From Flavobacteriales bacterium (GTDB taxonomy: Bacteria; Bacteroidota; Bacteroidia; Flavobacteriales_C; GCA-002722245): 43,254 nucleotides of DNA. This document shows positions 10,158 to 22,820 of this stretch, in pieces (the stretch's first letter is position 1; every line of letters begins with the position of its first letter). The stretch is from contig CANFBW010000025.1 in the NCBI GenBank assembly GCA_947444925.1, positions 1-43,254 on the forward strand, read 5' to 3'. Below the pieces are notes generated by a model. It searched no databases and was not told the DNA's origin. It worked only from the letters and a program-made list of their open reading frames with translations. Position numbers and translations under genes: made by a program.

Positions 10158-10385
10158 AATCAGTATTTCTTTTTAATGACCTATCCCAATCCACCTTACT
10201 GCAATCAACACTATTCAGTTTCAACTAGGCGTTTTGGTACTCGGTCAATTTGTCATTACTATTTCATTGTAGCGCTTTACTTTCGTTCATTAATTAAACA
10301 GAAAGTATTTTTAAGCAGCGAATGCCTATTGTTCAATGCTTGTGCCAAGGCATTAATTGCGACATTATGTCGGAAACACCGTTTT
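10158..10385. other. Non-coding stretch upstream of lon
   Basis: No gene was found here on either strand. It should hold the lon promoter, but no exact TAnnTTTG box is present. A weak inverted repeat (AATGCCT at 10321-10327 and AAGGCATT at 10347-10354) precedes repeat copy 2. Confidence 0.6.
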
Positions 10386-10600
10386 AATGATTGTCCGCAA
10401 TTGCACCATTTATGTTCCGCAAGTGGCGATAGATCCTTCGGAGTACCTCAGGAAGACAAATGTGACCAATTACAAATAAACTTGTTTTGAATACCCTTGT
10501 CTTCCTGAGATTTGAGATTAAGAGGAGAAACGAAGTTTCGCTATTTGAAGGATCTATCGCATTAAACATAAATTTGCAGGTACAATTGCAGACAATCATT
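10386..10600. repeat. Inverted-repeat element, copy 2 (intact 215-bp palindrome)
   Basis: The outer arms are AATGATTGTCCGCAATTGC at 10386 and, read inward from 10600, the complement of ATTGCAGACAATCATT; they pair almost throughout. Inside, GCGATAGATCCTTC (10426-10439) pairs perfectly with GAAGGATCTATCGC (10547-10560). CTCAGGAAGACAA (10447-10459) pairs with TTGTCTTCCTGAG (10497-10509), and GAAACGAAGTTTC (10527-10539) is a small hairpin. The whole element can fold into one branched structure. The right end overlaps the TGA stop of the next gene. Confidence 0.92.
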
Positions 10601-11753
10601 CTGTTTTACTTTCAAACAAATGATTCAAAATATTTTTTTCGGCAGCGCTGTATTTTTCACCTTTCAATGAAGCGAAGCGACTGTTGGCAAGGTGCAAGTG
10701 ATCCATTTTCATTTGTGCATTTAGTCCATAAGAAAACGATGGAAGAAAAACGGGCACAGCGCCGTGCTCAAAAATATGGCAGGCCACTGCTATTACTGTT
10801 CCGCAGGTCAATCGGGTACTGATGGCGGTGCGACAATAGTCACCCATAAATACGCCGCAAAAATTTTGTCCGCTGGCCTGCATTTCGCTAATTTTCATAT
10901 TCCACACCTTGATTTCGCCCAAAGTATTTTTCATGTTAGATGCATTGGTATCGGCGCCCAAATTACAAAAAGAGCCAAGCACAGAATTGCCCATGTAGCC
11001 ATCGTGCCCCTTGTTGGAGCAGTCGTTGAAAATGCTGTTTTTTATTTCACCACCCACCGTGCATTTTGCACCAATGGTAGTTCCGCCGTATATCTTCGCG
11101 CCCATTTTCACCGTGCTGTCTTTACCTATATAAACAGGGCCCCGCAGCATCGCTCCCTCCATCAGCATGGCGCCGTCGTCAATAACAACAGGTCCGTCCG
11201 CACAATTAAAAAAAACACCTTGTGCCTGCACTCCTTCACCAAAATAAACGGCGTCGCCCCCGTAAACAAAGCACGAAGCAAGCTGCTGCGCATTGGCCTT
11301 TTTACAGTGCTGGAGCGCTACATCACTTTTAATTTGAGCAGCATTTTTTAAAAATAAATCCCACATGTGTTCAATGCGCTCAACGGTTTCCAGCTCCGTA
11401 AAATCGATCAAAATTTCACAGTTCAGTACATTGTCAATTGCTTGCTTACTCTTAAATGCAACAATGCAGTCGCCGCAGCGCAAACCTTGTTCAGGCAACA
11501 AGGCCTTTATTTTTTCACGCAATAAGGCAGTGGGCAATACGCTCGAATTGACAGCAAGGTAAAAACCCTCCTGCGCAGGCGCGTATTTTTCTTGCAAGTA
11601 GTCGCTCGTTCGCACAGCGAAAGGCAAATGCAAATACCTTTCCCATTTCTCGCGCAGGGTGAAAATACCCAGTCGCAAATCAGAAAGTGCCTTGGTGGCG
11701 GTCAGCGGCAAAAAATTATCCCGCGTATCGTCGTCGAAAAGAATTGCATTCAT
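10596..11753 (-). CDS. Alternative GlmU-type UDP-GlcNAc pathway protein
   Basis: A 385-residue protein of the Bacteroidota-type GlmU family (putative sugar nucleotidyltransferase plus left-handed beta-helix acetyltransferase), expected to supply UDP-N-acetylglucosamine for cell wall and lipid A. The N-terminal part (MNAILFDDDTRDNFLPLTAT, then DLRLGIFTLREKWE) matches the family opening. From about residue 185 the hexapeptide repeats of the beta-helix begin (VVIDDGAMLMEGAMLRGPVYIG and on), followed by KGHDGYMGNSVLGSFCNLGADT and a WNMKISEMQASGQNFCGVFMGD segment. The stop TGA lies within the outer arm of repeat copy 2, so the last residues may have been set by the insertion. It is divergent from the phosphatase at 11848. 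Confidence 0.88.
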   Translation of the reverse strand: MNAILFDDDTRDNFLPLTATKALSDLRLGIFTLREKWERYLHLPFAVRTSDYLQEKYAPAQEGFYLAVNSSVLPTALLREKIKALLPEQGLRCGDCIVAFKSKQAIDNVLNCEILIDFTELETVERIEHMWDLFLKNAAQIKSDVALQHCKKANAQQLASCFVYGGDAVYFGEGVQAQGVFFNCADGPVVIDDGAMLMEGAMLRGPVYIGKDSTVKMGAKIYGGTTIGAKCTVGGEIKNSIFNDCSNKGHDGYMGNSVLGSFCNLGADTNASNMKNTLGEIKVWNMKISEMQASGQNFCGVFMGDYCRTAISTRLTCGTVIAVACHIFEHGAVPVFLPSFSYGLNAQMKMDHLHLANSRFASLKGEKYSAAEKNILNHLFESKTE

Positions 11754-11847
11754 AGTGGAAAGTTAGCACAGCAAAATCAATAAATAAATGTTTTTCCTTT
11801 TAATATTGATCCCTTTCAATAATTTAGGCGCTGAAATAAATCAAGGC

Positions 11848-12312
11848 ATGAAAAAAATACTGATGGTTTGCTTGGGCAATATTTGCCGCTCACCAGTAGC
11901 CGAGGGGCTAATGAAGCACCACGCGCTGAAACAAAAACTAGAACTGGTGGTAGCATCAGCCGGAACATCGGGATGGCACGAAGGAGAAACGCCCGACAAG
12001 CGGTCAGCTGAAAATGCTTTGGAACACGGCATTGACATTAGAAAACAAAGATCGCGACCAGTGCGCAAAGACGACTTCACGACCTTTGACTTGATTTTCG
12101 CTATGGATCAAGCCAACTACGACCACCTTATTGAAATGGCGCAGCCAGAGCAGCATGCAAAAATAAAGATGATTCTTAATGAGGCGCATCCCGGCAAAAA
12201 CCTACCCGTGCCTGATCCCTATTATTCTACCGACGGATTCGAGGAAGTTTACCAACTCATCAATGAGGCGTGTAACGTCATTGCCCAAAAACTGAAAAAC
12301 AATGAATACTAA
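11848..12312 (+). CDS. Low-molecular-weight protein-tyrosine phosphatase
   Basis: A cytoplasmic phosphatase of the LMW-PTP family, 154 residues. The P-loop CLGNICRSP (CX5R followed by Ser) is near the N terminus (residues 8-16), and the general-acid Asp lies in PDPYYSTDGF near residue 129. I start at the ATG at 11848 because MKKILMVCLGNICRSP is the normal family N terminus; an upstream in-frame ATG at 11788 would add 20 residues that do not belong to the fold. It overlaps the next gene by 11 bp. In bacteria such enzymes often act on tyrosine-phosphorylated polysaccharide kinases or arginine-phosphorylated proteins; the target here is unknown. Confidence 0.94.
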   Translation: MKKILMVCLGNICRSPVAEGLMKHHALKQKLELVVASAGTSGWHEGETPDKRSAENALEHGIDIRKQRSRPVRKDDFTTFDLIFAMDQANYDHLIEMAQPEQHAKIKMILNEAHPGKNLPVPDPYYSTDGFEEVYQLINEACNVIAQKLKNNEY

Positions 12313-13015
12313 AGGAAATCTATTCCTCTTTCCTACGCTGCTTGGCGAAAATCATTTTGAGGAAGTGCTTCCCCTGAAAACACTGAGTTTCATGCGCAGC
12401 ACGAAGTATTTTATTGTAGAGAACGAGCGCACGGCCCGCCGCTTTTTATCGGCCATCAAAAGTTCATTTCCGATACCCGAATTGATTTTTTGGACGATAG
12501 ACAAACACGACAACATTGGCGATTTCAGTGAAGCATTTAAATTAATGGAAGCTGGTGAAAATGTAGGACTTCTTTCAGAAGCCGGCTGCCCAGCCATTGC
12601 CGACCCAGGCAACAACATTGTTGCAACGGCCCATCAAAAAAGAATTCGCGTTGTGCCTTTTACCGGGCCAAGTTCAATATTATTATCGCTGATGGCGAGT
12701 GGATTCAATGGACAAAATTTTCAATTTCACGGCTACCTGCCGCGCGACAAATCGCCCTTGAACCAAAAGCTTAAAAGTTTGGAAAACGAATCACGCAAAA
12801 ACAAAACGGCACAAATATTTATTGAAACGCCTTACCGCAACCAAGCCATTCTCGACGAAATTCTCATCGCCTGCCAGCCGCAAAGCATGTTGTGCATTGC
12901 AGTTGACCTCACTTTAGAAACAGAAGAAATCATTTCAATGCCCATCGCCAACTGGAAAAAAAATACCTTGCTTTTCAACAAACGACCGGCAATTTTTTTA
13001 CTGCAAGTCTTATAA
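12302..13015 (+). CDS. RsmI-like SAM-dependent methyltransferase (tetrapyrrole methylase fold)
   Basis: A 237-residue protein of the tetrapyrrole-methylase superfamily, in the group related to RsmI (16S rRNA C1402 2'-O-methyltransferase). Recognisable parts are the N-terminal LFLFPTLLGE strand, LLSEAGCPAIADPGNNIV near residue 95 (the RsmI counterpart reads SDAGTPxISDPG), VVPFTGPSSILLSLMASGFNGQNFQFHGYLP near 120-150, and IFIETPYRNQAILDEIL near 177. It is shorter than RsmI and lacks its C-terminal helical domain, so it is a paralogue rather than RsmI itself. It overlaps the phosphatase gene by 11 bp, implying coupling. The substrate is unknown. Confidence 0.88.
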   Translation: MNTKGNLFLFPTLLGENHFEEVLPLKTLSFMRSTKYFIVENERTARRFLSAIKSSFPIPELIFWTIDKHDNIGDFSEAFKLMEAGENVGLLSEAGCPAIADPGNNIVATAHQKRIRVVPFTGPSSILLSLMASGFNGQNFQFHGYLPRDKSPLNQKLKSLENESRKNKTAQIFIETPYRNQAILDEILIACQPQSMLCIAVDLTLETEEIISMPIANWKKNTLLFNKRPAIFLLQVL

Positions 13016-13032
13016 ATTTGTATCTTACTACC

Positions 13033-13545
13033 ATGAGAAATATTTTACTAGTTGCTCTTCTTTTAAATTTTCAATTGTTTTTTGCGCAAGCTGATGCTTT
13101 TACAACTTCCACCTCAAAAGATGGAAAATACAGCATCAAACATTTGAAAACATGGTCGGTTGCTTTTCAAAACAATGGCTGCGAAATGGCCATCACTGTG
13201 CCCGCTTCAAAAGCAAATCAAATTGAAGCCGAATACCGGTTGACAAAAGAAGACAACTTACCCAAAGACTTTAATTTAGAAATGCTCACTACGCGCAACT
13301 CCCTGCTGATAAGCAAGTTTTTGGTTGCCAGTGCAGAAGAAAGCGGATCAGCCAACTTTAACGGACTTACACCCAACTGGGTGACCTATACTTACGAAGA
13401 TAAAATGACGACCATCAAGGGACGTTCGTATTTCTTTTTGATCAACGGTGTTGCCTATCAACTCACGCTTACAGCACCTGAAAATGATTTTAAAACATCG
13501 GCTGTTCTATTTCAACAAGTTGCCGAATCATTGACTATCAAATAA
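13033..13545 (+). CDS. Small secreted protein, PsbP-like, function unknown
   Basis: A 170-residue protein starting with a signal peptide (MRNILLVALLLNFQLFFAQA), so exported to the periplasm or envelope. The mature part resembles the PsbP or DUF1795-like fold seen in many small bacterial secreted proteins: SKDGKYSIKHLKTWSVAFQN at the start, a middle with mixed strands, and a final FQQVAESLTIK helix-strand. This resemblance is tentative. I prefer Met at 13033 to the ATG at 13018 because the latter adds MYLTT in front of the signal. A TAAATTTG box at 13013-13020 could be its own promoter. It faces the glycosyltransferase gene tail to tail with 13 bp between. Confidence 0.7.
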   Translation: MRNILLVALLLNFQLFFAQADAFTTSTSKDGKYSIKHLKTWSVAFQNNGCEMAITVPASKANQIEAEYRLTKEDNLPKDFNLEMLTTRNSLLISKFLVASAEESGSANFNGLTPNWVTYTYEDKMTTIKGRSYFFLINGVAYQLTLTAPENDFKTSAVLFQQVAESLTIK

Positions 13546-13558
13546 TACTCTTACTGCA

Positions 13559-14551
13559 CTAGTTGCGCAGTAACAACTTCAGCACCTCTTCAGGTTTGAC
13601 CTCTTTCACCAAGGCATCCAGTTCAGCATCGCTGGCGCCATCAGCAGTTTTACCCAATACAAAGGCATTTGCACCAAGAGGTCTCCAACGGCCTGCATGC
13701 ACCGGACGGCGCGCTGAATAAATACCAATGGCTTTTTTACCCAGTGCTGCCGCAATGTGCAGCGGCCCTGTACTGCATGCCACGATGGCATCACAATGCT
13801 GAATCAGCACCATGAGTTCTTGCAGATCCAATTTCCCCATCGCATCTATCACACCTGGGTGCCTAAACAAACTTGACGTCGCTATAGATTTTTTTTCACT
13901 TGCGGTTCCAGTAACAATAACCTGAAACCCCTTGCTCAACAAAAGTTCAGCACATTTCTCAAAATTTTCAATCCCCCATTCCACAGCACTTCCCTGAGAT
14001 TTTGGGTGCAGAATTACTTTTTGTTTGTTCAGCGAAAGCAACATTCCCTTCGACAAATCACCTGTCACAGTCAATCCAAAAGCAGTTGAAAGTGCATCCA
14101 ACGACGGAATCTCCGAAATGCCCAAAGGAGCCAATAACTTGAAATTCAGCTGCGCCTCGTGCAAATCACTATTTCTCCGCGAGAAAGCAACTTTGTGGTT
14201 GCATGCAATCCAGTTGTAAATACGGTGACTGCTTCCAATTCTATTGGCAATATCCGCCTTGCGCGCGATGTGCGCCAAATCCTTGCGCGGGTATACATGC
14301 AAGAAAACGTCGGCACGTTGGCGCTTCATTTCTTCCACCTGCTCGTTTCTATCTAATTTTAGGAGCGCATCATAGTCCATGAAATCATCAATAAAACTAC
14401 AATTTTTTAGCACCGGTATCGTATATTCGCGTCCTAAAAAAACCAAAGTCGTTTTGGGGAAACGTTTTTTTAAATAAGCCACCAAAGGCAGTGTCAACAC
14501 TACATCTCCGATGCCGTCTGTTCTGCTGATAATTATTTTGTTGTAGTGCAT
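13559..14551 (-). CDS. Glycosyltransferase family 9 (heptosyltransferase-like)
   Basis: A 330-residue inverting GT-B enzyme that transfers heptose or a related sugar from a nucleotide donor to the inner core of lipopolysaccharide, at the cytoplasmic face of the inner membrane. The N terminus IIISRTDGIGDVVLTLPLVAYLK is the GT9 signature loop. The C-terminal half contains ILHPKSQGSAVEWGIENF, a GFQVIVTGTASEKK segment and CSTGPLHIAAALGKKAIGIY, the family's donor-binding motif. No signal or membrane segment is seen. The gene is isolated, with repeat copy 3 starting 37 bp upstream of its start codon. The exact acceptor sugar cannot be read from the sequence. Confidence 0.93.
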   Translation of the reverse strand: MHYNKIIISRTDGIGDVVLTLPLVAYLKKRFPKTTLVFLGREYTIPVLKNCSFIDDFMDYDALLKLDRNEQVEEMKRQRADVFLHVYPRKDLAHIARKADIANRIGSSHRIYNWIACNHKVAFSRRNSDLHEAQLNFKLLAPLGISEIPSLDALSTAFGLTVTGDLSKGMLLSLNKQKVILHPKSQGSAVEWGIENFEKCAELLLSKGFQVIVTGTASEKKSIATSSLFRHPGVIDAMGKLDLQELMVLIQHCDAIVACSTGPLHIAAALGKKAIGIYSARRPVHAGRWRPLGANAFVLGKTADGASDAELDALVKEVKPEEVLKLLLRN

Positions 14552-14587
14552 TTTATTCTTTTGTAGTGGATAAATATATCAATTTCC

Positions 14588-14804
14588 AAATGATTATCCG
14601 GAATCGTACCAGTAGATTCATCTATATGGCGATAGATCCTTCGGAGTACCTCAGGAGGACAAATGCGAACAATTTCCAACATAGGTTTTTCGAGAATGAT
14701 TGTCTTCCTGAGATTTGCGATTAAGAGGTGAAACAAAGTTTCGGTCTTTGAAGGATCTATCGCCACTTCTGTCACAGGACTGGCATAACTACGAATAATC
14801 ATTT
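14588..14804. repeat. Inverted-repeat element, copy 3 (intact 217-bp palindrome)
   Basis: It starts AAATGATTATCCGGAATCGT and ends with the matching inverted arm TACGAATAATCATTT. Inner arms GCGATAGATCCTTC (14629-14642) and GAAGGATCTATCGC (14750-14763) pair perfectly. CCTCAGGAGGACAA and TTGTCTTCCTGAG form the next stem with a G-U pair, and GAAACAAAGTTTC the small hairpin. The outer arms differ from copy 2, but in both copies the two arms remain complementary. Confidence 0.92.
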
Positions 14805-15260
14805 TTTTGAACATGTGTTGCAACAATTTGTCAAATATCAATCGCCCCGCATCTATTGCAAATTCGTCGAACAATTATTTGCTTTTGAAGAAAAAGGAAG
14901 TAACTTTAACGGCTAAGGGCAATCATCGTTTTTGAACAAACGGAATAGATACAAAAAGGCGTCAAAATTCAGTTTTTATTTCAAAAACACAGGGTCTTCT
15001 GCATAAAGCAAAAGAGCCGTCAAAGGGGGGAATGCAGTGCGAAAACACAACTATGTCAAGCACTTGCAATGACCATTACCAAAACACCAACAACAAACGA
15101 AAAACAATTTCAAATCTATTCTCATAGACTTGTAACTTTTATTGTTTGAGTTTGTCTTAGTTGTGGGAAGGGTAAACGCAGCAAAAAAAAGGGTCATTAA
15201 AAAGCTCTCAATTTCGCTTCGTGTATTGATAAACACACAGTTTTTTGGTGTCGATTACTG

Positions 15261-15374: not shown

Positions 15375-18300
15375 ATGATGATTCCCAAAGTCAGTACACC
15401 AATTTTAGGCAAACTAAAAAAGTCTGTATCACTTTTTGTTCTATTTATCCTCGCTGTCAATAGCTATGCGCAACGCGATTTAGGAATATCTGGAGGAAAC
15501 AACGTATCGAGTATGGTTTGTGCCAACAAACAAATTTACGTTTGGGGACAAGGCAATTCTACACCCACCCCAGTGGTATTTCCAGGAGGTTTAACTATCA
15601 GCCAGGTTAACTCCGGTTCAGGAGGACACTACGTGGCATTAGCCTGTGACAAAACTGTTTGGTCATGGGGTGGAAATGACAAAGGTCAATTGGGAAATGG
15701 CATTTGTTGTGCAAATGTTGCCACACCAACTAAAGTTAAAGCCTCTCCTACTCTTCCGGCTGCATTTAGAAACGCAAGCAATGAACTTATAAATGCTGAT
15801 GTAATTTACGCTGGTAATGAAAATAGTTTCGCTATTATGAAAGACGGATCACTGCTTTCATGGGGAGGAAACACCAATACTGGCGCATATGGAAATTCCA
15901 ATCAAGGTCAATTGGGAAATGGAAAAGTTGGAGATCAATATTTTGCTGATTACGTTGTTGACTGCGCTGGAGCTCCTTTGAAGGGTGTTGTTCAGGTTTT
16001 CGCAGGTGACAATTGCGCTTATGCTTTAGTGGATGTAGATGGTGATGGAATTGGTACAGTATATTCATGGGGTCAAGGCTTAAACGGATCTTTAGGAAGA
16101 AATGCGGCAGGTACCGCCAATCCAAAAGATGCTGCAACGGTAATTAGCAACAGAGCATGCCCAGTGCAGTATTCAGCCCCTGAACATATCCCTGGTGACA
16201 TGAACAACATTAGGGCAATTTCCTGTAGTGATGGTACCGGACAAGCTTTGGATGTTGATGGATATGTTTGGACATGGGGAAATGGTGGATGGAATAATGC
16301 TACCGGAAACACAACTGTGTCTTATACAGGATCTGATCCACGTAGAGTTTTGAAAGGAAGTACTACTGGCGCAAGTAATGACGGCACTTATTTATTGGCC
16401 AAACAAATTGGCGGTGGACAAGGATACGGGATGGCAGTAACAGTTGACGGAAAGCCTGTGGCATGGGGCGGTGGTGGCTGTACCGACGGAGGCGCTACGG
16501 GAAATGGAACCATGACTGGTTCAGGAGCAACAGGAACTGGGTACATTAAATTTGGTCCAGGCGTGAATGATGTTCACAGTACTGTAATTCAAATTAACAG
16601 AGGTGATTTATGGGGATTCTACCAAACTGCCGACAATAAATATTATGCCTGGGGTTGCGGTGCAAACGGAGTTTTAGGAACTGGAAATAACACCAACCTT
16701 CCGTACGCTACTAACCTTGTTCCCCCTACTGCATGTGGATTTAGAGATCCTATTCCAGAAGTGCTTTTAACTCCAGGTGACACCGCTGTTTGTGCTTCTT
16801 CTTTAACGGGCATTACTTTAAAATCAGGCTTTATTATTTCAGCAGCATTGGCTCCTTCTTATAAGTTGAATTGGTATAAAGACAACGGGTTAGTTAAAAC
16901 AGGAACCGCTGCTACCGACATCAACTATACTGCAACTACGCCAGGAACGTACAAAGTAGAAGTAATATACATTGGCTTAAATGCTGGTTGCGATCCTTAC
17001 GATACTGCAAGAGCAGAAATGACCATCTCTACTTTCCCTGTGACTTTTACCGTTCCTACCAACCTCACTTATTGCGGAGCTACTGGGACAGTAAATGTAA
17101 ATTCTACTGCAGCAACAAAACCTGCCTATATATGGTACCCAACTGCAGTGAGTACAACACCAATGGATACAACTATCGCAAGTGGCACTACCATTATTAA
17201 CCTTGCTGGAATAACCGCAGCAGGAAATGGAGATAAATGTGTATGGGTAGAAGAAGGCTCCTACGCAAGTGGAAGCGTATTTAAGAAAACACAGGGACTG
17301 GATGCCACTTGGAGCAATATGGAATTTTTAAATCCAGGCGCACAAACCAATACTGTTGAATCAGGATTTACAGTGACTGAAGCAATGACGCTCACGAGCA
17401 CTCAAATTCGCATGTCTGATGAAATGTACGGTGCTGGAACACATAGCGGCACCATGACATTTGGTGTTTATAAATCCAAAACAAACAACGGCGGGTTAGT
17501 TGCCGACGACGCTAACAAAATTGGAACATTTACCTACAGTTGGTCACGAACAGCTGCTGCTGCCGGTAATGTTTTTACAGACGCTACCGTTGCAATTAAT
17601 GTTAATCTACCAAGCGCAGGCGTATACTTCATCTCCCTGGACAACAGCACACTTGTTGGAGCTGGTAATGTGAAAATTGGAAAAGGCGCGTCCAACGGCC
17701 AAGTTACTACTCTTCTTAAAGATGATTCTAACGGATCCTTAATTTCATTCACCAATTCAAGTGTTAATGGAAATCCGCAAACAGGAGGTAATTTAAATCA
17801 AGGAAATTTCTTTAATATTAATTTTCAAAGCAGCCAACACTACTGCGATAGAAAACAACTTTGTTTGAAACAACAATGCCCATGTCAACAACCTGCGTCA
17901 GTTACGATCACGGCTGTTCCAACGGCTGTTGCTAAGGTTGTAACCGTTTGTCCGAGCAGTGCTATTACACTGTCGGGAACATACATTGCTGGAACCACTC
18001 CTGCTAGTGTAGTAGACGCCATCAGATTTGTATGGTACAAAAAAGGAACCACACCGGGCGCTTATGCTTTAGCACCCGTTGCAAATAAAGTATTGACAGG
18101 CATCCCTGCTGACGCCGGAATGTGGTACTTGCGCGTTGAAGATGGTGCAGCTGGAACAGCAAGTTGCTACAGAGAAGATAGCGTAACCATTGTTTTCAGC
18201 ACGGTACCAGCACCTACTGCAATGACAGCCAAAATATGCAGCGGATCTGCATTTAGTGTAACTCCAGTCAACGTTACCAATGGTGTCGTTCCAGCAGGAA

Positions 18301-21300
18301 CAACCTACACATGGTCAGCGCCAACAGGTACTGGTTTCTCAGGAGGTACAGCGCAAGCAGTTGACCAAACGAGCATTGGACAAACATTGACCAACACCGC
18401 CACAGGTATTTCAACTGCCGTGTATTCAGTGACACCAAAAACTGGAACTTGCTCAGGCACTCCATTTAATGTAACGGTAAGTGTTGAAAAAGATGTGGAT
18501 GCTGCAGTTGCCGGTACCGCCACTTCCACTTGCGCTGCACTTTTTCAATTGGGTGCTACACCAGTGACAAACGGAACGGGTACATGGACTTCAGTTCCTT
18601 CAACAGGAATTACCTACACGACAGCCAACGCGAATTCACCAACAGCAACGGCCAACGGACTCGCTGCAGCAACGGCATACACTTTCACTTGGAAGGTGAG
18701 CAATGGCGCAGGCGCAACTTGTCCCGACAAACAAGCCACCGTTGTCATTACAAGAACCGACATCACTTCTGCTACACCGGTATCGACTCAAACTAAAACC
18801 ATTTGTTCAAGCGCAGCCGCTCCTCTATTGAACACAACAGGAGTAGCAACTTTGAAACTACAAGAAACAGGAACATGGGCTGCCACAGGCCCTGCAACGA
18901 TCAATGCCACAACTGGTCAAACAGCCGGTTTGGTGACGGGGGCCAATGTATTTACCTACACCATTACCAGCACTATCGCAAGTTGTACTCCTTCTGTGGG
19001 CACAGTAACTATTACCGTTGAAAAAGAAGTAGATGCTTCAGTAGCTGGAACTCCAGACGCTACCTGCGCCACCAGCTACCAATTGGGCGCTACCCCAGTG
19101 ACCAACGGCGTTGGTACCTGGACAGCATCACCTTCGACAGGAATCACTTTTACAGCCAACGCGAACACTGCCACTGCAGTAGCTGCAACGTTGACAGCAA
19201 ACACTGCATATACTTTCACGTGGACCGTTAGCAATGGTGCTGGCGCAAAATGCCCCGACAAAGTTTCTACTGTGCTTATTGCACAAGCAGGCGACATCAC
19301 TTCAGCTACACCTGTATCGACACAAACAAAAACAATTTGTGCAAATATTGCAGCCCCTTTATTAAACACAACAGGCGTTGCGACTCTTAAAATAACCGAG
19401 AGTGCCGCATGGTCAGCTGTATCACCTGCTACCATTACTCCTCTAGGACAAACAGGTGCTTTGGCACTTGGCGACAACGTGTTTAAATATACTATCACCA
19501 GTTTAGTACCTGGTTGTGCGCCATCAATAGGAGTTGTGACTATCACTGTTCTTCCATTGCCTGGACCTGCTGACCCAATTGTAGGTTTACAAACTGTTTG
19601 CGCCGGCACAGCAGGTGTTACCTACACTGTGCCTGTAGTGTCAGGTATTGGCTACAATTGGACAAGACCTGCGGGCTCAACAATTACTGCGGCTACTGCC
19701 GATTCAAGCAGTATTACCGTTACATTTGGAAATACAGATGGCACATTCGACTTTGTTGCTACTCCTAAAAACTCATGTGGAACTGGCACGCCTTCAAAAC
19801 TTACGGTGACTGTGAAGAAAAACTTGACTCCTACCGTGACGATCTCTGGGCCAACCGAAATTTGTGGCGGTGGAAATGCTACTTTCTTTGTTAGCGGTTC
19901 AACAGATGGCGGCACTGCTCCCACTTATGAATGGTATGTTGGTTTATTGAAACAATCAAGTACAACCACTTCTTTTTCAACAACGACCTTGGCCAACAAC
20001 GACATCATTACTGTAAAAATGACCTCTAACGAAGGCTGTGTTACCACTGCAAAAGTGACATCAAACGCTATTCAAGTTAAAGTCGTGGGAATGGTTAGAC
20101 CTAAAGTTACCCTTGACCCTAAATTTGCTTGTAAAGGTGTTGCCCAAACCATTACCGCTTATCCTGAAAACGAAGGTGATGCAACAGCTGTATTCGAATG
20201 GAAACTCAACACCGTCATCGTTCAAACTGGAACCGGAAGAACTTATACCAGTTCCGCTTTTGTAAATGGTGATGTATTGGAAGTACAATTGACTTCTAAC
20301 CTATCTTGCGCTGGACCAAGTAAAATTGCCGACACTAGCGCAGTGATTGACGTTCGACCAGTGCCGGTTGCTACCGCGGTAGACGCATCGGTTTGCAGCA
20401 AAGTAAAATCAGTTGTACAAATGAAATCAAATACCAGCGGAACCGTGTTTACATGGACGACAGTGGCACCATCTGGCATTAGCGGTTCAAATCCTGCGGG
20501 AGGAAACAGCACACCAACCGACAGTACAATTTCTGAAAACCTGAGCACTAGTTTACTTGCCGCAGGTGACGTTGTATATACCATCACGCCAACTGCAGGA
20601 ACTTGTGTTGGCGCTGCCATTCAAGCCAAAGCAACGGTAAAACCTTTGCCTTCAGCGATTGCCACTGATGATTTGTTGTGCGATGGCAAAACGAGCAACA
20701 TTCCTTTGACTTCCGATGTCACTGGCGCTACTTTTAATTGGACGGCCTCAGGTGTTGGTGTCACGGGGCAATTGGCCGACAATACGGGTACTTTAACAAA
20801 CATTGCCCAACCCCTCATCAACACGGGTACTGTAAATGGAACTGCCACATACGTGGTGACAGCTACGCTAGCAGGATGCTCGGGTACAGCAAAAACAGTG
20901 AATGCCGTTGTTAAACCAACGCCTGTTTTGACGCCTGTAACACCTCCTGCAATATGCAGCGGAGCCAAAGCCAATATCACTTTGGCTTCGAACCTTGCAA
21001 CTGCCACATCATACGGCTGGTTAGGCGCTACATTGAGTGCTGACATTACTGGAATTGTATCGCCTAATACAGGCGCAAAAATTGACGACGCGCTGATCAA
21101 CAGCGGAACTGCCGATGCCACTGCTACATACAGTGTTGTACCGGTTAGTTTGGGATGCATTGGTATAGCCGCCAACATCAACATCACTGTTAAACCAAAA
21201 CCAGTACTAACCGTAACTTCTACCTTAGCTACCATCTGCGGTGGTAACGATCCAGGTATCGACGTACAATCTTCAGTAAGTGGTACAACTTACAATTGGA

Positions 21301-22820
21301 CAGCGGTAGCAAGTGGCGCTGGCACAGCTACGATCACTGCACCAACAAGCGGCACAAACGTAGCTACTGGTGCTTTGGCAACGTTACTAAACAACACCAG
21401 CAACGCTCCAGGCATCATCACTTTTACAATGAAGCCAAGTGCGGCAGGTTGCACCGGTACTGACGCCCCTATCGCCATCACAGTGAATCCTTCACCAGAC
21501 GCGAAGTTTATTTCGGGTTCACTTTCTATATGCTCAGGTGCGACGACAGATTTAAAAATCAATACCAGCATTTCTATTCCAGTTACCTTCGATTGGACGG
21601 CTGCGAGCACAGATGTAACAGGATTTAGTCCAACTGGCACGTCAACTGCTTTGCCAACAACCATTGCGGAAGTATTGACCAACGCTGGTTCGGCAAACGG
21701 ATCTGTGGTTTACACCATCACTCCATCAGGTGGCGGCTGTATTGGAACACCACTTGTAAAAACGGTGGTTGTAAAACCAATTCCTGTTGCAACGGCAACC
21801 AACAACGTTTTAGAATTGTGCAGCGGAAGTGCCACTTCTATAGCCTTGAGCTCACTGACCCCCGGCGCTACTTTTGATGTAACTGCTGCAGCAAAATTCA
21901 GTAAAGCAAGTGGAATGCATTCAGAAAGTGCTTTGATCATTGGATCAAGTATTCAACAAACCCTGTCTTCAACAGGAACGGATACGGTAACTTATACCAT
22001 CACTCCAACAGCGGCATCTTGCGCAGGTTTGCCGATCAAAGCAAAAGTGACGGTGTACGAAATACCTATTTCTGACGCAGGAACAGCAGCTCCTTATTGT
22101 GCTGGTGACAGCGCAATTATTGGAGGAAGCTCTGTGCTTGGCTACACTTACTTGTGGTCACCCGCTACAGACCTAAGTGCAACCAACATTTCAATGCCCA
22201 CAACAACTGCAAAAAGCACTACGCCATATACGGTTACTACAACATTAACCGCATTTCCGTCTTGTTCTTCTAGCGCGAACATAACGGTAGCAGTTTCACC
22301 TCAATTCACGGTTGATGCTTTACCTGATTTTGAAACTTGTGCCAACCGTTTGACACCTTTGACATCAAGTCCTTCAGGACTTGTATTGTATACTTGGACA
22401 GACAGTATTTTCAAAACAACCCAAGATGGTCAGAACATTCAAATTCAAACAGAAAATACAAACACGTATTATCTATTGTCATCTAATGGCGGTTGTTTGG
22501 CGAGAGACACAGTAACGGTGAGTATAAAAGACGATTTCAAACCGACACTATTCCTTCCAAATGCTTTCACGCCAAACAATGATGGCACAAATGAAATCTA
22601 CCGAGTTGGAGCGTTTGGCGTTGAAGAATTTGAAGCCATGATTTTCAACAGATGGGGCGAGAAAATTTTCACCTGGAATGATGTAAATGGAGGTTGGGAT
22701 GGAACACGAAATGGACGTTTGGTGCAAGAAGATGTATACATCATTGCAGTGCGCGTAAAAAACATTTGCGACCTCGAATTCAACGATTACCACAGGGGTA
22801 CCATTACCGTACTGAGGTAG
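15375..22820 (+). CDS. Giant secreted protein: RCC1-like repeats, PKD-like repeats, T9SS type-B C-terminal domain
   Basis: A 2481-residue surface or secreted protein. The signal peptide ends near NSYAQ (residue 33). Residues about 45-455 carry RCC1-type beta-propeller blades, each with a W-G-x-G or SWGGN motif and often QLGNG (VWSWGGNDKGQLGNG, VYSWGQGLNGSLG, YYAWGCGANGVLG). A Cys-containing Ig-like domain covers about 465-550, and a beta-rich unknown domain about 610-830 ends in a Cys cluster. PKD-like domains follow: one at about 945-1036, two copies of a 178-residue unit at 1037-1394, further Ig-like domains to about 1660, then six PKD-like repeats of about 90-105 residues to about 2235. 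The last 93 residues (FLPNAFTPNNDG, then FNRWGEKIF and GWDG) are the gliding-associated type-B sorting domain. It therefore should cross the outer membrane by T9SS. Adhesion is the likely role; no catalytic motif was seen. Confidence 0.93.
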   Translation: MMIPKVSTPILGKLKKSVSLFVLFILAVNSYAQRDLGISGGNNVSSMVCANKQIYVWGQGNSTPTPVVFPGGLTISQVNSGSGGHYVALACDKTVWSWGGNDKGQLGNGICCANVATPTKVKASPTLPAAFRNASNELINADVIYAGNENSFAIMKDGSLLSWGGNTNTGAYGNSNQGQLGNGKVGDQYFADYVVDCAGAPLKGVVQVFAGDNCAYALVDVDGDGIGTVYSWGQGLNGSLGRNAAGTANPKDAATVISNRACPVQYSAPEHIPGDMNNIRAISCSDGTGQALDVDGYVWTWGNGGWNNATGNTTVSYTGSDPRRVLKGSTTGASNDGTYLLAKQIGGGQGYGMAVTVDGKPVAWGGGGCTDGGATGNGTMTGSGATGTGYIKFGPGVNDVHSTVIQINRGDLWGFYQTADNKYYAWGCGANGVLGTGNNTNLPYATNLVPPTACGFRDPIPEVLLTPGDTAVCASSLTGITLKSGFIISAALAPSYKLNWYKDNGLVKTGTAATDINYTATTPGTYKVEVIYIGLNAGCDPYDTARAEMTISTFPVTFTVPTNLTYCGATGTVNVNSTAATKPAYIWYPTAVSTTPMDTTIASGTTIINLAGITAAGNGDKCVWVEEGSYASGSVFKKTQGLDATWSNMEFLNPGAQTNTVESGFTVTEAMTLTSTQIRMSDEMYGAGTHSGTMTFGVYKSKTNNGGLVADDANKIGTFTYSWSRTAAAAGNVFTDATVAINVNLPSAGVYFISLDNSTLVGAGNVKIGKGASNGQVTTLLKDDSNGSLISFTNSSVNGNPQTGGNLNQGNFFNINFQSSQHYCDRKQLCLKQQCPCQQPASVTITAVPTAVAKVVTVCPSSAITLSGTYIAGTTPASVVDAIRFVWYKKGTTPGAYALAPVANKVLTGIPADAGMWYLRVEDGAAGTASCYREDSVTIVFSTVPAPTAMTAKICSGSAFSVTPVNVTNGVVPAGTTYTWSAPTGTGFSGGTAQAVDQTSIGQTLTNTATGISTAVYSVTPKTGTCSGTPFNVTVSVEKDVDAAVAGTATSTCAALFQLGATPVTNGTGTWTSVPSTGITYTTANANSPTATANGLAAATAYTFTWKVSNGAGATCPDKQATVVITRTDITSATPVSTQTKTICSSAAAPLLNTTGVATLKLQETGTWAATGPATINATTGQTAGLVTGANVFTYTITSTIASCTPSVGTVTITVEKEVDASVAGTPDATCATSYQLGATPVTNGVGTWTASPSTGITFTANANTATAVAATLTANTAYTFTWTVSNGAGAKCPDKVSTVLIAQAGDITSATPVSTQTKTICANIAAPLLNTTGVATLKITESAAWSAVSPATITPLGQTGALALGDNVFKYTITSLVPGCAPSIGVVTITVLPLPGPADPIVGLQTVCAGTAGVTYTVPVVSGIGYNWTRPAGSTITAATADSSSITVTFGNTDGTFDFVATPKNSCGTGTPSKLTVTVKKNLTPTVTISGPTEICGGGNATFFVSGSTDGGTAPTYEWYVGLLKQSSTTTSFSTTTLANNDIITVKMTSNEGCVTTAKVTSNAIQVKVVGMVRPKVTLDPKFACKGVAQTITAYPENEGDATAVFEWKLNTVIVQTGTGRTYTSSAFVNGDVLEVQLTSNLSCAGPSKIADTSAVIDVRPVPVATAVDASVCSKVKSVVQMKSNTSGTVFTWTTVAPSGISGSNPAGGNSTPTDSTISENLSTSLLAAGDVVYTITPTAGTCVGAAIQAKATVKPLPSAIATDDLLCDGKTSNIPLTSDVTGATFNWTASGVGVTGQLADNTGTLTNIAQPLINTGTVNGTATYVVTATLAGCSGTAKTVNAVVKPTPVLTPVTPPAICSGAKANITLASNLATATSYGWLGATLSADITGIVSPNTGAKIDDALINSGTADATATYSVVPVSLGCIGIAANINITVKPKPVLTVTSTLATICGGNDPGIDVQSSVSGTTYNWTAVASGAGTATITAPTSGTNVATGALATLLNNTSNAPGIITFTMKPSAAGCTGTDAPIAITVNPSPDAKFISGSLSICSGATTDLKINTSISIPVTFDWTAASTDVTGFSPTGTSTALPTTIAEVLTNAGSANGSVVYTITPSGGGCIGTPLVKTVVVKPIPVATATNNVLELCSGSATSIALSSLTPGATFDVTAAAKFSKASGMHSESALIIGSSIQQTLSSTGTDTVTYTITPTAASCAGLPIKAKVTVYEIPISDAGTAAPYCAGDSAIIGGSSVLGYTYLWSPATDLSATNISMPTTTAKSTTPYTVTTTLTAFPSCSSSANITVAVSPQFTVDALPDFETCANRLTPLTSSPSGLVLYTWTDSIFKTTQDGQNIQIQTENTNTYYLLSSNGGCLARDTVTVSIKDDFKPTLFLPNAFTPNNDGTNEIYRVGAFGVEEFEAMIFNRWGEKIFTWNDVNGGWDGTRNGRLVQEDVYIIAVRVKNICDLEFNDYHRGTITVLR
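18483..19547 (+). repeat. Tandem duplication of a 534-bp unit inside the giant gene
   Basis: Unit 1 (18483-19016) encodes VEKDVDAAVAGTATSTCAAL onward, and unit 2 (19017 to about 19547) encodes VEKEVDASVAGTPDATCATS onward. The two agree over their length, including QLGATPVTNG, YTFTWxVSNGAGA, SATPVSTQTKTIC and APLLNTTGVATLK. They are in frame, and synonymous differences are many, so the duplication is not recent. Confidence 0.9.

Follow-up and report, generated by a model that had tools for sequence, protein, structure and literature searches.

A palindromic repeat in a Flavobacteriales genome is very probably an IS1595-type MITE with a REP-like dimer as cargo

The window, which is the whole stretch of 43,254 nucleotides analyzed here, is contig C25 of a 3.24-Mb draft genome of a Flavobacteriales bacterium. 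It contains a palindromic repeat that the preliminary description had given as three 215-bp copies sharing GCGATAGATCCTTC and its complement, a CTCAGGAAGACAA-type stem, and a GAAAC/GTTTC hairpin. Copies 2 and 3 are indeed palindromic and full-length, each 213 bp between the true ends, and contain all of these shared elements. Copy 1 is a decayed half, in which the left end, outer motif, and hairpin survive but no CTCAGGAAGACAA stem or right arm is recognizable. The features are located as follows.

1240..~1329, − strand: decayed half copy (copy 1), with left end, outer motif, and hairpin module only
10379..10386, + strand: copy 2 target duplication, left, CCGTTTTA; 7/8 match with a one-base offset
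10387..10599, + strand: copy 2, a full-length MITE of 213 bp; 25 copies of its family have both ends
10387..10409, + strand: copy 2 left terminal inverted repeat, 23 bp, A side
10426..10439, + strand: copy 2 cargo palindrome, outer stem, left, GCGATAGATCCTTC
10447..10459, + strand: copy 2 inner stem, left half of the head-to-head REP-like dimer, CTCAGGAAGACAA
10497..10509, + strand: copy 2 inner stem, right half of the dimer, TTGTCTTCCTGAG
10510..10546, − strand: copy 2 40-nt hairpin module, within the right dimer half; its GAAAC/GTTTC stem spans 10527-10539
10547..10560, + strand: copy 2 cargo palindrome, outer stem, right
10577..10599, − strand: copy 2 right terminal inverted repeat, 23 bp, B side
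10601..10608, + strand: copy 2 target duplication, right, CTGTTTTA
14590..14802, − strand: full-length MITE copy (copy 3), 213 bp; end order opposite to copy 2, module in the other dimer half

The flanks of copy 3 match at 5 of 8 positions, which gives no clear target duplication. The right terminal repeat of copy 2 supplies the stop codon TGA of a glmU-like gene (TIGR03991, 10596-11753), indicating an insertion at the 3' end of the gene. Elsewhere in the window, an open reading frame at 15375-22820 encodes a 2481-aa product. It carries a T9SS type B sorting domain, which points to Bacteroidota, and has internal repeats at 18758-18901 and 19292-19435 that are 72% identical.

From the outside in, a 23-bp terminal inverted repeat is followed by 16 bp that are specific to each side and then by a 135-bp core. 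The consensus of the terminal inverted repeat is ATGATTATCCGCAATTGTACCAG for one end of the element and ATGATTATCCGGAATCGTACCAG for the opposite end, and the A-side and B-side consensus differ in the base at positions 12 and 16. In the core, GCGATAGATCCTTC is followed by a short half (GGAGTAC) and by the inner stem CTCAGGAAGACAA; a loop of ~37 nt then leads to the second copy of the inner stem and to a long half with the 40-nt module.

The core motif occurs at 91 sites of the genome with at most one mismatch, compared with none for the reversed control, and 73 BLAST matches were obtained, much more than chance would give. In the stretches read around motif matches, rather than over the whole genome, we counted 41 paired cores (about 40 core-length copies) at a spacing of 121 ± 2 bp. 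The core length is exactly 135 bp in 29 of the 41. Both ends are kept in 25, and 13 of these are exactly 213 bp long. Target duplications were examined in those 25, each with both ends within two mismatches of 10 and the boundary set at ATGATT...AATCAT; the other 16 paired cores were dropped, and at least two of them look like chance pairs. A perfect 8-bp duplication flanks 9 of the 25 copies and none of 600 mismatched flank pairs. The mean flank match at 8 bp is 0.750, against 0.396 in mismatched pairs. It drops to 0.440 for a length of 7 bp and to 0.578 for 9 bp, an intermediate value such as a 9-bp frame around the 8 should give. The excess is small or nil at 5, 6, 7, 10, 11, and 12 bp. When one base of slack is allowed, 21 of the 25 copies match at 7 or 8 of 8 positions, a total reached by none of 20,000 permutations. 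Examples of the duplications, which are AT-rich, are AACTTTAA, TTTAATTT, TATCATTT, and TTGTGGAA.

The repeat is short, non-coding, and multicopy with terminal inverted repeats, as MITEs are, and its AT-rich 8-bp duplication has the length typical of the IS1595 family, for which Siguier 2009 is reportedly the founding paper. An IS1595-family member, ISApl4, makes AT-rich 8-bp duplications according to an excerpt of PMC12561309. Searches for the core outside the genus gave no match at E 0.001 in 55 relatives of other genera, and one exact core pattern had no match in a genome-contig database. Single IS1595-type ends with neither partner nor core nearby also occur in the genome at C73:9123 and C12:45270, the latter ~180 bp upstream of an apparent start codon.

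A search of the genus with the MITE end sequence gave matches in three of five genomes. In the genus mate G004, two facing ends (C92:229304-230307, stretch L200), each identical to the MITE consensus at 22 of 23 positions, enclose 1004 bp with a 307-aa open reading frame. This frame matches only PF12762 (DDE_Tnp_IS1595; IS1595/ISXO2 transposase domain) with an E value of 2.1e-24, and the target duplication ATTAGTTA was read by eye. The insertion sequence is thus an autonomous relative with the same ends and a putative parent, and it holds the only open transposase gene with MITE ends, in another species of the genus. The genome of the window itself has pieces of a decayed IS1595-type transposase gene at C15:33195-33583 (L221 and L224; 61% and 45% identity) with an end-like sequence just upstream, probably the relic of a former autonomous element. 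Together with the consistent ends and the 8-bp duplications, the putative parent bears out the earlier suggestion of a MITE-like mobile repeat. Like IS1595 insertion sequences and their MITEs, the element has AT-rich 8-bp duplications, matching terminal inverted repeats, and a putative PF12762 parent. It differs in the interior, which is unrelated to the insertion sequence and consists of an independent extragenic palindrome dimer and a hairpin module. Between end and core, the 16 bp match neither the interior of the insertion sequence nor each other from side to side.

The interior is a head-to-head dimer of a TGTC-tagged REP-like extragenic palindrome, which is also found alone. Cores without the ends occur in the same genome (for example on C4, C8, C45, C59, C61, and C64) and in all four genus mates. 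All 24 genus palindromes that we collected have the same kind of middle box in both halves (CTTCG, GGAGTACC-like, or AACAAGT). The TGTC tag at both loop-side heads, the head-to-head pairing of the cores, and the lack of a nearby RAYT resemble the CGTC-tagged REP superfamily, in which TGTC is a listed tag variant and which occurs in several phyla (excerpt of PMC3733652). With its 8-bp stem and 5-nt loop, one genus variant, TGTC-ATCCTGAA-CTTGT-TTCAGGAT-CTA, agrees with CGTC-type REPs as defined in the literature. In the other genus palindromes, the tag and the head-to-head order are shared and the stems are poorer: a stem of 8-9 bp starting with AT, a 4-5 nt loop, and a short tail are found in only one of the 24 (ACTTGTT type). 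The inner stems of the window copies, read by eye, are ~5 bp, imperfect, and start with TT or CT. Compared with the CGTC REPs described in that excerpt, the stems of the window copies are shorter and imperfect, one half contains a hairpin module, and the outer palindrome consists of transposon-like ends with target duplications.

Other cargo lies under the same IS1595-type ends in the genus mates, namely a GCCTCATCC palindrome in G001 and a CGTCATTGCGA palindrome in G004. Short matches to the CGTCATTGCGA repeat are abundant in G001-G004 and stop before the ends, and the G001 cargo also has matches confined to the palindrome. In the genome of the window, the sole match of the CGTCATTGCGA repeat is beside an otherwise orphan end at C79:5113. 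The stretch C79:5037-5133 (L096) is the remnant of a second MITE type with CGTCATTGCGA cargo and the same ends.

We consider it highly probable that the repeat is an IS1595-type MITE with a REP-like dimer as cargo, presumably moved in trans by an IS1595-family transposase. Judging from the ends and flanks, a transposase of this group would act on the 23-bp terminal inverted repeats and produce the AT-rich 8-bp target duplications. The head-to-head TGTC-tagged dimer, which is not derived from the insertion sequence, would have been captured between two ends. A separate 40-nt hairpin module would have been inserted independently into the left or right dimer half.

A structured RNA, or a transcription terminator or mRNA-stability element, in which pairing is selected and mobility is secondary, had also been considered for this repeat. 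The predicted folds of the window copies are very stable (z-scores of −9.9 and −5.9), the core is fixed at 135 bp in 29 of the 41 paired cores, the gene at 10596-11753 has copy 2 at its 3' end, and the 40-nt module has several different pairing stem sequences. The strong folding, however, follows from the palindromy of the element. The preliminary description had proposed selection for pairing, or arms copied together, on the ground that copies 2 and 3 differ in their left outer arms with matching changes in the right arms. Most of this matching is absent: the left arms differ at end positions 7, 12, 16, and 18, and position 7 alone has its counterpart change in the two right arms. Within copy 2, the arms disagree at 4 of 23 positions, and within copy 3 at 6 of 23; the differences at positions 12 and 16 of the end consensus are tolerated mismatches. 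Over all subfamilies, within-copy end identity is 18.08 of 23 against 17.35 with shuffled partners (reached by 17 of 20,000 shuffles). The excess is gone in the main subfamily (18.41 vs 18.16; 1065 of 10,000 reach it) and remains in a subfamily of eight copies (17.38 vs 16.22; 10 of 10,000). For the core stems, we used 29 of the 41 cores, those with the exact 135-bp length and a recognizable half. They have 10 doubly changed cells, compared with 5.7 in the shuffled sets (19 of 1000 shuffles attain 10), and 4 stem pairs with a double change, compared with 2.8 (257 of 1000); G-T pairs show no excess (16 vs 18.2). Shared subfamily ancestry and the shared role of both ends as transposase sites would be enough for the slight excess of matching in ends and stems. 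Rfam had no match in the whole window at the gathering level; with E up to 1, the region 10300-14900 gave nothing at the element and a sole chance-level match at 12906-12966. With little excess covariation, no G-T bias, no Rfam match at the element, and target duplications that show insertion, we regard the RNA reading as unlikely.

The MITE reading also has to be weighed against other routes of movement and assembly. Since the interior is a REP-like dimer and Y1 transposases are present in all five genus genomes, a RAYT (Y1) transposase might have moved the repeat as a REPIN-like element, with the outer arms as part of a REP array. The core motif was found within ~1.5 kb of none of the 16 RAYT loci examined (among 18 Y1 matches listed), and the loci read from one RAYT group are flanked by other repeats. 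An 8-bp target duplication is a signature of DDE-type transposases, and Y1 enzymes are not known to make target duplications. Mobilization by RAYT is disfavored for these reasons and seems very unlikely. The same MITE may, on the other hand, have been assembled in the reverse order, with a simple MITE first and the REP dimer inserted later. REP dimers are described as inserted within palindromes (Di Nocera et al., 2013, PMC3733652, excerpt), and Halothiobacillus copies with similar ends have a non-REP interior. No empty two-ended copy lacking the dimer was seen in the genome of the window. We regard this order as possible albeit doubtful, and under either order the dimer is MITE cargo now. A simple fold-back origin, in which one end of the insertion sequence was duplicated through a palindrome, was rejected on inspection by eye, since the 16-bp stretches next to the two ends are unlike each other.

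As the dimer sits inside a MITE that was probably moved by an IS1595-family transposase, it would spread as passenger DNA of a DDE-type transposon. CGTC REPs seem to have no dedicated transposase, and a broad spectrum of transposases might mobilize them (Di Nocera, De Gregorio, Rocco 2013, PMC3733652). The same source, in the excerpt used here, gives the CGTC dimers of H. neapolitanus as lying inside 41-bp palindromes, which are left unexplained. Through one arm of this 41-bp palindrome, we reached a Halothiobacillus draft genome. The merged end pattern there (GGGCACCTCGAAAAACC ends; GGG-ends) is found at 142 sites and its reversed control at 7. Facing ends have a perfect 4-bp duplication in 14 of 24 pairs, some of which are overlapping or spurious end pairs, against 6 of 552, and no other length stands out. 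A second set was made of 20 stretches chosen mainly by the spacing of the REP-bearing type, and some copies are common to both sets. It has 17 paired elements, 15 of which hold at least two REP units; the perfect 4-bp duplication is present in 11 of these 15, against 1 of 272 mismatched pairs formed from the full set of 17. Other copies have similar ends around an interior that is not a REP. The outer palindrome of Halothiobacillus behaves as the transposon ends of another family, and no autonomous parent was found for these elements in our search.

The spread of CGTC/TGTC REPs by riding as cargo of unrelated DDE-type elements is supported but not proven. The support comes from IS1595-type ends and 8-bp duplications around at least two different CGTC/TGTC palindromes in a Bacteroidota genus, and from unrelated GGG-ends and 4-bp duplications in Halothiobacillus. 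We tentatively suggest, as something short of probable, that CGTC/TGTC REP dimers are transposase-agnostic passengers taken up repeatedly between the ends of unrelated DDE-type families. Palindromic interiors may favor the formation or survival of MITEs. How CGTC REPs move was left open in 2013, and two lineages with different duplication lengths make the idea of broad transposase use directly testable. The transposon-end reading also offers a reason for the REP dimers seen inside long palindromes. Our search of the open-access literature found no paper linking CGTC REPs to transposon ends, and a motif search of it gave unrelated papers only.

REP-bearing MITEs are already known, and the present element extends this kind. 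The nearest precedent is QMITE2 of Coxiella burnetii, a 150-190 bp MITE that contains a REP and has direct repeats of 7-11 nt; its smaller copies resemble a REP without ends (PMC5896051, excerpt). It differs in that the REP is a GTAG REP and that no parent is named in that excerpt. A review, as excerpted, reads the small QMITE2 copies as truncations and not as an independent source of cargo (PMC10969869). BrickBuilt of Porphyromonas gingivalis is likewise a Bacteroidota MITE with foreign repetitive DNA inside, a minisatellite of tandem 23-mers instead of palindromic REP dimers (excerpt of PMC4596501).

The 40-nt hairpin module has the form AAGACC-[stem-loop]-TCCTCTTAATATCAAA and occurs at 46 sites in the genome of the window and 17 in the four genus mates. 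The boxes AAGACC and TCCTCTTAATATCAAA are constant, and the stem varies (GAAAC, GAAAG, GAAGC, GAATGAGT, AAAGCCAT) with pairing mostly kept. In the window, the module is at 10510-10546 and 14713-14749; further examples are in stretches L230, L237, and others. Its placement in the MITE was tallied in 37 rows, of which 32 were scored, with C21:52180 counted twice among the module-less rows. Of the copies with a module, 15 have it in the right half and 15 in the left, and two elements have none. These two, C21:52180-52362 and C30:553-723, have symmetric halves and possibly represent the ancestral form. The loop is in phase with the ends in 29 of the 30 scored module-bearing copies, the reference direction of loop types 2 and 3 being arbitrary. 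Because a single core inversion would also reverse the loop, the two module positions would come from either two nested inversions or separate insertions. Inversions of Wolbachia insertion sequences through terminal-repeat recombination (PMC3004938, excerpt) are a precedent for inverting a segment between inverted repeats; here, in contrast, the loop is in phase with the ends and one simple inversion is insufficient for both positions.

In the contexts examined, the module lies mostly within other palindromic repeats, including repeats like those around genus RAYT genes. If REP dimers are such transposase-agnostic passengers, the 40-nt unit, with its conserved boxes and freely changing stem, would form a third order of passenger and insert into REP hairpins. 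The genus RAYT genes (L093, L262, L263, L264, and L270) are flanked by their own repeats of the GAAGCTTTCAGCTTC and AAGTTTAGCG types, and such flanking repeats appear to be sites into which the module inserts.
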